Source: Paucisalibacillus globulus (GTDB lineage: Bacteria; Bacillota; Bacilli; Bacillales; Amphibacillaceae). Taken from it: a stretch of 64,000 nucleotides of DNA. This document shows positions 1,658-43,684 of this stretch, one piece after another. A program made the position numbers and the translations under genes. The stretch is from assembly GCF_900184735.1 (NCBI RefSeq), contig NZ_LT855386.1:62001-126000 (forward strand), written 5' to 3'. The notes beneath the pieces were generated by a model. It was not told the origin of the DNA and did no database searches. It worked only from the letters and a program-made list of their open reading frames with translations. The first letter of the stretch is position 1. Each line of letters starts with the position of its first letter.

Positions 1658-1911
1658 TAAATGTGAGAAACAGACACAATAAAACCACAAAAAATGAAGA
1701 CTGTTTGAATAAAAGTCATTATTATAATAGCCTATTGTTTTCCCCTACTTTGAATCAATTAAATATTAGATAGGAACTGTGCGGTAACTACGGATTTTGG
1801 GTAGAGCAACATACCCGCTACGGAAATACACTCCGCTTTCCGCGGGCGGCTGGTGAGCCTCCTCGCGCTTACGCACTGCGGGGTCTCACCGAAGCCTATC
1901 CTCCCGCAGGA

Positions 1912-1971
1912 CAAGGAACGCTACGAAAGCGATACATCGCACGCAGAAAAAGTGATTTTCTTTTTCAAGGA
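1912..1971. repeat. 60-bp cassette in left arm of repeat copy A
   Basis: Compared with copy C, the left arm carries exactly 60 extra bases between CCGCAGGA and GTCTCCG. The extra sequence is homologous, in inverted orientation, to the cassette at 2095-2154; both share CAAGGA and ATCGCACG blocks and an AGAAAA run. Confidence 0.75.
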
Positions 1972-2094
1972 GTCTCCGTGTATTTCCTTCGCTAGTATTG
2001 TGTGAAAAAAATAAGCGATTAAAACCAACACTATAATTATTTACTAACTTAAGTTAGAAAACCTAAACTAGCGCAGGCAGAATACGGAGACTCC

Positions 2095-2154
2095 TCGAAA
2101 ATAAAGAACAATTTTCTTCGTGCGATGATTATGCTGCCGAAGCATTCCTTGTCC
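2095..2154. repeat. 60-bp cassette in right arm of repeat copy A
   Basis: Sixty bases inserted at the equivalent site of the right arm, between GAGACTCC and TGCGGGA. Copy B carries a very similar cassette at 29584-29643, while copy C lacks it. Confidence 0.75.
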
Positions 2155-2340
2155 TGCGGGAATAGCACGTGTCCGAAGACCCCGCAGAGGTGAACTTTCC
2201 TCGAGGAGGCTGAGGCCGGGCCCGCGGAAAGCGAAGTATTCTGCCGGAGCGGTGTCGTACAGCTGTACCCAATAACTAATTCTTTTGTAATTAAACTAGT
2301 TACCGCGCCGTTTCTGTAAAATGCTAACAAACTGTATCAA

Positions 2341-2378
2341 AGTCAAAATAAAAAAGTGCTGCGTTAATACGCAACACT
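2341..2378 (-). terminator. Intrinsic terminator after spoVS
   Basis: On the minus strand, AGTGTTGCGT - ATTA - ACGCAGCACT (2355-2378) forms a fully paired 10-bp stem, with one G-T wobble, followed by TTTTTTATTTT (2344-2354). Confidence 0.9.
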
Positions 2379-29090: not shown

Positions 29091-29409
29091 ATATCCACCT
29101 CCAGAACTTACAGTTACTTCATATATATGCTAAAAAATAACTTGTATTCCCTCGTCAACATCTCAGATCTGTGAAAGTTTAAATTAATTTCATATCCGTA
29201 GCAAGTTTATTCTAGTTAATTGCCAATAGAAGTAAAAATCCCCACCATTTTTACCATTTACAAATTAAACATCATCATGATGAAGATTACTATCCATAAT
29301 AATTCCTTATCAAGATAAAAATAGCATATCAATGGGAGGTCCAATGATATGCTATCAATAACGAAATCTTGAGTATTGGCTGTTTTCGAACAGTTGTTAC
29401 TAATTTATT
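29091..29409. other. AT-rich non-coding stretch upstream of ymxH
   Basis: About 320 bases between ymxH and repeat copy B. I see no credible gene on either strand and no RNA gene. A CATCATCATGATGATG-like dyad (about 29271-29284) is present but short. It presumably contains the ymxH promoter, which I cannot assign confidently. Confidence 0.5.
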
Positions 29410-29807
29410 AGAAACTGCGCGGCTAGTATTCTTTTTGGGGAGCACCATACCCGCTACGGAAATACACTCCGCTAGTAAGATGTAATGAATAAATTTAATG
29501 GCATCTAAATTATTAAAATACATTATTTAACCTCATACACTAATGAGAAAACTAAACTAGCGTAGGCAGAATACGGAGACTCCTCGAAAATAAAGGACGA
29601 TTTTCTTCGTGCGATGATTACGCTGCCGATGTCTTCCTTGTCCTACGGGAATAGCACGAGTCCGAAGACCCCTAGAGAGGCGAACTTCCCTCGAGGAGGC
29701 TGAGGCCGTGCCCGTGGAAAGCGGAGTGTTCTGCCGGAGCGGTGTAGTACAGCTCTGCACCCAATTACTAATTGTGTTGTGATTAAACTAGTTACCGCAC
29801 AGTTTCT
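29410..29807. repeat. Modular palindromic repeat element, copy B (left arm deleted)
   Basis: A 398-bp copy in the same orientation as copy A. Terminal inverted repeats are AGAAACTGCGCGGCTAGT (left, from 29410) and, at the right end, the complement of AGAAACTGTGCGGTAACTA. The right arm (29567-29733) is 167 bp and complete, with a cassette. The left arm stops after CACTCCGCT (about 29473) and is replaced by about 75 bp of AT-rich sequence, leaving the spacer ACTAAACTAGCG intact. An apparent frame at 29557-29760 encodes the same pseudo-peptide as copy A and is rejected as a gene. Confidence 0.82.
29584..29643. repeat. 60-bp cassette in right arm of repeat copy B
   Basis: Exactly 60 bases between GAGACTCC and the next GGGA block, closely matching the copy A cassette at 2095-2154. 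Confidence 0.75.
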
Positions 29808-29866
29808 ATCTACTATTCAGGAAAAGCACATTCTTTTTTTGCTAAGCATTTATAATTTATTGTTAA

Positions 29867-42184: not shown

Positions 42185-43129
42185 TTACAAATAATCTACT
42201 AATCCATTATGATTAATTTTTATCGTATCAAACTTTAAGTAATCTTGTAGTGCTTTTTGTAGTGTTGCTTTTGTAGTTTCTTTAGTACCAAATTCTACAT
42301 CTAAATTGATCATATTACGCACGATTTCAGGACGTAAACCGGTTATAACTAACTTGCTTCCCATCATTGTTACACCATCAAGTAATTTTAAGAATAGTTT
42401 AATTGCTTCATTATCCATTTCGGCTATACCGGAGAGGTCCATAATTAATGTTTGTATTCTGAGTCTACCAACTTCTAATAATACTTTTTCCTCAATAATG
42501 TTTGCACGATTCGTATCGATAGTACCAATTAACGGTAAAATGCTTACATCTGGTGTGATTGGTATAATGGGTACTGATAGGTTGTTTACTAATTTTTGTT
42601 GTTTCTCAATTAATTCATCTTTATATCTTGAATAACTAATGAAGAATCCATTTGTAAAAGAATCAATTAATTCATTATACATACTTGTTTCTGAGTAAAA
42701 AATATCACTTTTCTTTTCTCTATTATCAGTCAACACATCAAATTGATGTAGAAATTCCCAAAAGGTCTTACGAATTGCCCGTATCCATTCTAGTTTAAAG
42801 CTTAGTGTCATCGCATACTTAGCCCAAACCATGCCCTCTTTCCTAGCAAATGCTTTTACTTCTTCTTCTTTTTGATCAACGACAAGTAAAACTAATTGAT
42901 GGGCATTATCTAATAAATTTATATTCCCAATCAAATGAATTTCGTTTATCTTATCCCTAACGTTTACCGCAACACTAAGTAGTTTCTCTTCAAAAAGGCT
43001 ACGATTTACCTCTAAAAATTCATGTATATTCTCACTTTTTTTGAAATCAGACACAGACAAACCACTTCCTTGTTTTGATTGGCTAGTTTCGTGCAGCTTG
43101 TTGCTATTTATAGAAACAGTGCGATACAT
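42185..43129 (-). CDS. Orphan RsbR-family STAS-domain protein
   Basis: A 314-residue protein with a C-terminal STAS domain (about 185-300) of the stressosome RsbR type: SVPIIPITPDVSILPLIGTIDTNRA, then DLSGIAEMDNEAIKLF and VITGLRPEIVRNMI. The phosphorylatable Thr in RsbRA's DITG motif is Ser here, and the Thr of the second site is kept (ITGLRPE). The N-terminal part (about 35-175) is helical and probably a sensory domain; it has no motif I can name. RsbR proteins build the stressosome that controls sigma-B. No rsbS, rsbT or other partner is nearby, and this gene is not expected between polC and rimP. ATG 43129 follows GAGGGTGG. Repeat copy C ends about 40 bp upstream. Confidence 0.85.
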   Translation of the reverse strand: MYRTVSINSNKLHETSQSKQGSGLSVSDFKKSENIHEFLEVNRSLFEEKLLSVAVNVRDKINEIHLIGNINLLDNAHQLVLLVVDQKEEEVKAFARKEGMVWAKYAMTLSFKLEWIRAIRKTFWEFLHQFDVLTDNREKKSDIFYSETSMYNELIDSFTNGFFISYSRYKDELIEKQQKLVNNLSVPIIPITPDVSILPLIGTIDTNRANIIEEKVLLEVGRLRIQTLIMDLSGIAEMDNEAIKLFLKLLDGVTMMGSKLVITGLRPEIVRNMINLDVEFGTKETTKATLQKALQDYLKFDTIKINHNGLVDYL

Positions 43130-43167
43130 ATTAATAAACCACCCTCATAATTAATAAGGGATAGTGG

Positions 43168-43536
43168 AACGATACCGCTCCGGCAGAATACTCCGCTTTC
43201 CGCGGGCCCGGCCTCAGCCTCCTCGAGGTAAGTTCGCCTCTGCGGGGTCTTCGGACACGTGCTATTCCCGCAGGAGTCTCCGTATTCTGCCTGCGCTAGT
43301 TTAGGTTTTCTAACTTAAGTTAGTAAATAATTATAGTGTTGGTTTTAATCGCTTATTTTTTTTCACTCAATACTAGCGAAGGAAATACACGGAGACTCCT
43401 GCGGGAGGATAGGCATAGGTGAGACCCCGCAGTGCGATAGCACGAGGAGGCTCACCAGCCGCCCGCGGAAAGCGGAGTGTATTTCCGTAGCGAGTATGTT
43501 GGGCTAACCAAAATAATTATTTACCGCACAGTTTCT
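43168..43536. repeat. Modular palindromic repeat element, copy C (no cassettes, inverted orientation)
   Basis: A copy of about 369 bp, inverted with respect to copies A and B. Its two arms are 43184-43289 (ends CAGAATAC and GTATTCTG) and 43381-43486 (ends GGAAATACAC and GTGTATTTCC), each exactly 106 bp, and both lack the 60-bp cassette. The spacer keeps GCTAGT, TAACTTAAGTTA and ACTAGC. The terminal repeat TTACCGCACAGTTTCT is present at the right end (to 43536) and missing at the left, where homology begins around 43168. Confidence 0.85.
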
Positions 43537-43684
43537 ATCAACTATTTGTTATTTTAACTAAGTGGAAAACAACAATCTATTAGTAACCAGCCTTTGTTTT
43601 TAAAAACGTAATCAATTAAACAATATTTTGAATTTATTATACATATAAACACCTTGGACTATCAAGAAATTAAGTTATAAAGAA
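43537..43684. other. Non-coding stretch between repeat copy C and polC terminator
   Basis: AT-rich sequence with no credible gene. Together with copy C it makes the 605-bp gap between polC and the RsbR-like gene. Confidence 0.5.

Follow-up and report, generated by a model that had tools for sequence, protein, structure and literature searches.

The gap between spoVS and miaB measures 828 bp in Paucisalibacillus globulus and, within the window (the whole 64,000-nucleotide stretch of DNA that was analysed), contains a 646-bp element, copy A. The element has no transposase gene, its longest internal open reading frames reaching at most 93 amino acids, and carries two hairpin units (Table 1) with GC contents of 0.55 (unit 1) and 0.54 (unit 2) as compared to 0.36 for the window. 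The original prediction, made from the letters of this stretch, was of a palindromic element at 1772-2315, GC-rich in AT-rich surroundings, with terminal inverted repeats and two mirrored arms. Composition and arms are as predicted: the units, 166-170 bp in length, lie in opposite orientation and each closes with a perfect 10-bp stem of its own (GGAAATACAC/GTGTATTTCC in unit 1, GGCAGAATAC/GTATTCTGCC in unit 2). The repeats are real as well, 1772-1790 matching the reverse complement of 2297-2315 at 16 of 19 positions, but they are subterminal. They were found paired in 46 of the 60 fetched loci, with similarity that extends beyond them, and well-preserved copies end at GGCTGTTTTCNNAAANNTTGTTG, approximately 33 and 59 bp outside of these inner repeats. 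Copy A is longer than had been proposed, its true limits and its flanks AAAATGAA and AAAATAAA being placed by the orthologous spoVS-miaB gaps. The prediction had included neither the outer ends nor the target duplications, nor the link to IS1595 described below. Inserts similar to the nested module of unit 1 occur at the same place in four other loci (L113, L123, L137 and L181).

Table 1. Features of copy A and of the two further copies in the window
Feature	Position	Strand	Remarks
Left target duplication, AAAATGAA	1691..1698	.	7/8 identical to 2345-2352
Copy A, whole element (probable MITE)	1699..2344	.	Limits placed by orthologous gaps and by other copies
Left outer terminal inverted repeat, decayed, GGCTGTTTTC type	1699..1722	+	
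Left subterminal inverted repeat, GGAACTGTGCGGTAACTA	1773..1790	+	Terminal inverted repeat of the original prediction
Hairpin unit 1	1822..1987	+	Stem 1822-1831 with 1978-1987
Optional module nested in unit 1, about 57 bp	1912..1968	+	Limits approximate; missing from copy C
Hairpin unit 2	2076..2245	-	Stem 2076-2085 with 2236-2245
Right subterminal inverted repeat	2297..2314	-	
Right outer terminal inverted repeat, decayed	2321..2344	-	
Right target duplication, AAAATAAA	2345..2352	.	7/8 match to the left one
Copy B, with unit 1 mostly missing	29378..29830	+	Right limit uncertain (about 29830)
Copy C, two units without nested module	43081..43592	-	Outer ends GGCTGGTTAC / GGCTAGTTTC

Comparison of the spoVS-miaB gap covered 30 loci in all, that of P. 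globulus included. In eight of ten relatives of the same genus the gap contains neither the core of the hairpin units nor the inner terminal inverted repeat (at up to 3 mismatches), and in these element-free relatives it spans 185-322 bp. The two others carry the repeat, one in a diverged copy (G007) and one at a contig end (G001). The prediction had named orthologous gaps as a check for empty sites, and the element is indeed missing from these eight, although a base-by-base alignment of the empty insertion junction was not achieved. Among the 19 further genomes compared, the gap measures 430-601 bp and lacks a core match in four, and one genome of another genus (G011, locus L227) carries three cores without the inner repeat between spoVS and miaB, an interval that may be a hot spot for insertion.

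Distribution of the family

Further copies had been predicted and were found. Two lie in the window; the flanks of one of them, copy C, agree at only 5 of 8 positions. In the whole genome of P. globulus (3.92 Mb, 23 contigs) the core, CGCTTTCCGCGGGC, occurs at 188 sites with up to 2 mismatches as compared to 3 for a reversed control, and the inner repeat gives 136 matches versus 15 in its control, numbers well above those expected by chance. A 544-bp query matches 51 of the 61 genomes searched, P. globulus included. A pattern scan of genome contigs returned at least 116 stretches, and the 80 matches listed come under the names of 32 genera. We take 30 of these genera to be Bacillales; outside of them are Pisciglobus and one genome labelled Arthrobacter. 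Since the locus of the latter (L130) has a GC content of 42%, mislabelling or contamination is possible. By blastn, matches are present in 5 of 72,556 plasmid records and were not obtained from phages, and exact patterns gave no match in viral contigs. On Priestia plasmids, units are annotated as the hypothetical proteins WP_081732889.1 and WP_205664564.1 (L291 1420-1608 and L329 570-707, respectively), and these genes are probably spurious. Identical 200-nt surroundings were found between none of the 131 named cores. Judged by such matches, the family of hairpin units is present in dozens of genera and thus very widespread; our search of the open-licence PMC literature found no description of it.

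Target duplications and a likely partner transposase

The 85 end pairs that enclose a core in the P. globulus, relative and named loci form two classes. The 8-bp flanks are identical in 12 pairs, and 1 mismatch is seen in one pair, 2 in one and 3 in two, while the other 69 have 4-8 mismatches. Counted per element with both ends visible, an exact 8-bp duplication is present in 10 of 25 and absent from the other 15, as compared to 0 of 25 with up to 1 mismatch after a 3-base shift of one side. Both ends are recognisable in only 25 of the 166 elements with enough flank (233 elements in all), and therefore age, truncation or ends of another type probably account for many of the copies. One element in the P. 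globulus genome (L237) has TATACTTA on each side, and the number of units in elements with exact duplications ranges from one to three (L118, L175 and L141 being examples). Terminal inverted repeats, an 8-bp duplication and an element-free orthologous site, the features by which a miniature inverted-repeat transposable element (MITE) is recognised, are thus all present. Similar MITE ends also surround other cargo, tandem repeats rich in GCCCGCCCC (L236 553-870); the container can carry other sequence.

A search with the outer end matched 53 of 150 genomes (reversed control, zero) and pointed to an element of 1,625 bp in one of them (G146), whose transposase, of the IS1595 type, is divided between two frames. 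The IS1595 domain PF12762 was found at 29 loci in 26 of the 150 genomes, with 22 genomes above the curated cut-off and 4 of the 29 loci below that of Pfam. Paired ends of the MITE type (at up to 4 mismatches) flank 16 of the 29 loci, and their 8-bp duplications are exact in 11 cases and differ by one mismatch in 3, by two in 1 and by seven in 1. Displacing the right side by -3 to 3 or 5 leaves no exact duplication at any of these 16 loci, and only 1 of 112 comparisons has 1 mismatch. The family (PF12762, NF033547) resembles copy A in its ends, GGCTGTTTTC..TTGTTG or GGCTCTGTTAAAG..TGTTGATTTT, and in its 8-bp duplications, and both MITE end subtypes are found among IS1595 ends; copy A differs in having palindromic units in place of the transposase gene. 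One IS1595 element lies in the same genus (L302, G004): its 335-aa protein, in one frame, matches DDE_Tnp_IS1595 and the associated zinc ribbon, and its two unlike ends resemble MITE ends. Because of the shared end type and duplications, and because one IS1595 element is present in the same genus, it is likely that the element is moved by an IS1595 transposase. The P. globulus genome itself gave 0 matches to PF12762, which leaves the element without a partner found in the same genome, and its copies may for this reason be immobile now. A short-query search of plasmids with the outer end returned 17 records, and no partner was seen in the 4 that were inspected. Some IS1595 elements carry passenger genes, encoding a DUF5680 protein (L295 314-790) or a 133-aa protein without Pfam match (L302 949-1350).

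Could another transposase have moved these elements? The inverted pairs of hairpins described here look like REPINs, and two genes for Y1 transposases, one of them RAYT-like, are present in P. globulus, so that a RAYT or IS200-type Y1 enzyme acting on single-stranded hairpins would be a candidate. We nevertheless consider REPIN-like elements very improbable: neither Y1 gene has a core closer than about 1.5 kb (0 of 2 loci), and the elements have exact 8-bp target duplications, whereas IS200/IS605 elements are not known to make any. RAYT was rejected as the partner on account of this absence of units near the Y1 genes and of the different repeat that flanks the RAYT-like gene. That repeat, GGTGCCTGTCACTCCCC, stands on both sides of the gene (L255, G000:C22:319645-319974) and constitutes a separate REP-like system. 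It is just as improbable that the elements are MITEs of an ISL3-type transposon rather than of IS1595. ISL3 elements that start with GGCTCT or GGTTCT and have 8-bp duplications do occur in relatives. However, at none of 30 ISL3 loci does a pair of GGCTCTTTTCG ends surround the gene, the clear ends being mostly GGCTCTATAATATTTGTTGGGG or similar, while IS1595 ends fit both MITE end subtypes. This end mismatch, together with the lack of an ISL3 match in the P. globulus genome, led us to reject ISL3 as the partner.

Hairpin units, their stems and their folded form

The units share a core but can have wholly different base stems, such as GTCAAAATAGGTCG/CGACCTATTTTGAC in L102 and AGCCCGTATACAC/GTGTATACGGGCT in L122. 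In a permutation test on non-redundant simple units, which ignores their relatedness, the mean best base stem is 10.7 with the true partner arm as compared to 5.0 with a swapped one (59 units) and the mean best inner stem 5.3 as compared to 3.9 (55 units), neither difference being reached in 2000 permutations. The own partner arm is best or tied in 29 of 59 cases for the base stem and in 15 of 55 for the inner stem. The prediction that the arm ends pair and covary is thereby strongly supported. The permutation test was used since RNAalifold sees only the core, the base stems of unequal length being misregistered in the MAFFT alignment (A1; 51 of the 59 units, eight left out). The invariance of the core is partly circular, as the units were found by the core pattern.

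Nearly all of this change avoids wobble pairs. In the base stems of the named units we counted 456 Watson-Crick, 1 G-T and 3 A-C pairs and 41 transversion mismatches (501 cells), and in those of the P. globulus genome 694, 0, 4 and 46, respectively (744 cells); the inner stem, scored by transitions only, gave 305 Watson-Crick, 1 G-T and 2 A-C pairs. All these counts come from helices that were ended at two successive non-Watson-Crick pairs, with stems of fewer than 5 pairs dropped, a procedure that could hide some wobbles. A small tRNA control has 74 Watson-Crick and 5 G-U pairs (of 79). Looser matching of two stem families reveals changes in a single arm, for example 4 G-T and 5 A-C in 40 units outside the P. 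globulus genome (the two match sets, t1 and t2, overlap and are not additive); among near relatives stepwise change happens too. As RNA tolerates G-U better than A-C, and yet G-T is nearly absent, the near wobble-free stems fit better with hairpins of DNA than of RNA. On the other hand, invariant T-G pairs occupy two positions of the core in 51 of 51 units of alignment A1, which would favour one strand or RNA.

We therefore weighed whether the units belong to a structured non-coding RNA family, or form hairpins in mRNA, with the covariation arising from selection on RNA. Besides the strong covariation and the invariant G-U pairs of the core, such a reading would accommodate the optional nested hairpins, which are known from large RNAs, and the fact that L102 and L122 fold well as RNA (z -6.0 to -8.6), as does unit 1 in copy A (z -3.6 and -3.8 on either strand; -2.7 as DNA). 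It fares less well with the variable stems, in which G-U accounts for 1 of 501 cells in the named set and 0 of 744 in the P. globulus genome as compared to 5 of 79 in tRNA, and with the about equal RNA folding of both strands in L102, L122 and copy A, a comparison that the prediction had called for; L118 is weak (z -0.8 and -2.1). Nor does any Rfam family reach its gathering score in the window, the 7 matches at 1500-2600 all being below it and 4 of them to microRNA families. An RNA family is accordingly improbable in our estimation. Single-stranded DNA folding of 1699-2344 gave z = -19.9 against 20 shuffles, a value that measures the inverted pair because the best fold joins unit 1 to unit 2. 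A domesticated transcription terminator or insulator between genes likewise seems unlikely, even though the intergenic position of GC-rich hairpins speaks for it. Gene context was scored for 138 elements, 6 of which lie inside a called open reading frame and 39 of which were dropped as one side had no called neighbour. Divergent gaps are avoided (4 of 93 versus 69 of 343, p = 1e-4) and convergent gaps are slightly over-represented (22 of 93 versus 53 of 343, p = 0.09), but avoidance of promoters is equally expected of a neutral or harmful insert. Moreover, a terminator scan of 1600-2450 yields a single site, at 2355-2378 and thus beyond copy A, and the element is absent at this position from most same-genus relatives (8 of 10). 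No host function would be needed to explain the element.

Why, then, do the two halves of copy A differ? Inward-facing inverted neighbours (63 pairs within 450 bp: 17 named, 39 from the P. globulus genome, 7 from relatives) never have like stems, that is, stems with up to 3 differences in 12 bases, and their unit identity does not exceed 0.74. Tandem pairs, in contrast, have like stems in 9 of 15 cases and identities of up to 1.0 (Fisher p = 3e-8; p = 7e-4 for the named set alone). In this comparison neighbouring units need not belong to one element, and the 39 P. globulus pairs are not independent owing to shared descent. Four outward-facing pairs are unlike too. The likeness of tandem units may come from recent duplication. 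We read the rule that inverted units are unlike as intolerance of long perfect palindromes, a phenomenon known from work on SbcCD, which would also explain the diverged halves. The prediction had attributed these to an old inverted duplication within the element. This view is not upheld, as the halves are two unit types that are found in other genera, alone or as unlike inverted pairs; an inverted duplication far back in time is possible. Selection on structure in each arm, also proposed, is plausible, with the qualifications that the stems suggest DNA rather than RNA and that correction by template switching could match the arms as well.

Taken together, the ends, the duplications, the element-free gaps, the end-based link to IS1595, the covariation of stems, their lack of wobbles and the unlike pairs, all of them computed, make us confident that copy A is an IS1595-linked non-autonomous transposon (MITE), whose cargo consists of modular DNA hairpins in unlike inverted pairs. 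From these we infer the action of the transposase, DNA as the folded form, the intolerance of palindromes and the dispensability of a host function. An IS1595-type transposase, supplied in trans by an insertion sequence with matching ends, would bind the outer ends and move the element to AT-rich sites between genes, duplicating 8 bp of the target. As cargo the element would carry one to three GC-rich hairpin units, each with a conserved core and fast-changing yet paired base stems, that probably fold as DNA, either single-stranded at the fork or as a cruciform. Paired units would be inverted and would have to differ, since like units would create a long perfect palindrome.

Relation to known repeats and implications

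Several known systems share parts of this design. BOX of Streptococcus pneumoniae (PMC3049150) is likewise modular, with a variable number of units, terminal inverted repeats, target duplications and paired structure, but it belongs to another host and apparently has another sequence; unlike hairpins in inverted pairs and a likely partner insertion sequence set the elements described here apart. The bcr1, Bhal-1 (74 bp) and Bhal-2 repeats of Bacillus are also repeated stem-loop sequences, the comparison covering the sizes and copy numbers given in PMC2267715. With REP/RAYT systems the units have in common the many intergenic palindromes (PMC3733652), whereas a different repeat borders the RAYT-like gene of P. 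globulus.

A further likeness to REPs concerns IS110, whose elements insert into REP palindromes (PMC11208160). A 2-kb copy (L028), considered as an autonomous parent, was rejected since it is an IS110 element inserted into a unit (607-2633). Insertion at one and the same core site is seen in two genera whose units differ in their stems (L028 and L290 1240-1290), the same IS110 end being joined to that site in a Radiobacillus plasmid; 1 of the 3 IS110 genes of P. globulus is located in a unit. Group II introns recognised by Rfam overlap the unit span, just inside its limits, in two genera (L144 7573-7664; L165 3692-3776). Both an IS110 element and group II introns use the units as landing sites.

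In template-switch hairpins, too, both arms change together; this has been shown for RNA genes (PMC8794818), and here it is proposed for a mobile DNA family. One possible reading, advanced tentatively, is that the units are a natural record of hairpin evolution in DNA, in which both arms of a base stem are changed at once, mainly through template switching at the replication fork, and like partners are barred as palindromes. If this is true, stems would pass from one unrelated sequence to another with few wobble intermediates, two like units in inverted arrangement would give rise to a long palindrome exposed to cutting or deletion by the host, and the invariant core would be recognised either by a factor widely conserved among these bacteria or by the transposition complex.

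For a GC-rich repeat found across dozens of Bacillales genera, the limits, a sign of mobility and a likely partner transposase are now available. The stems of this repeat constitute a large natural data set on the simultaneous change of both arms of a hairpin, and the rule that inverted units are unlike offers a simple genetic test of palindrome intolerance.
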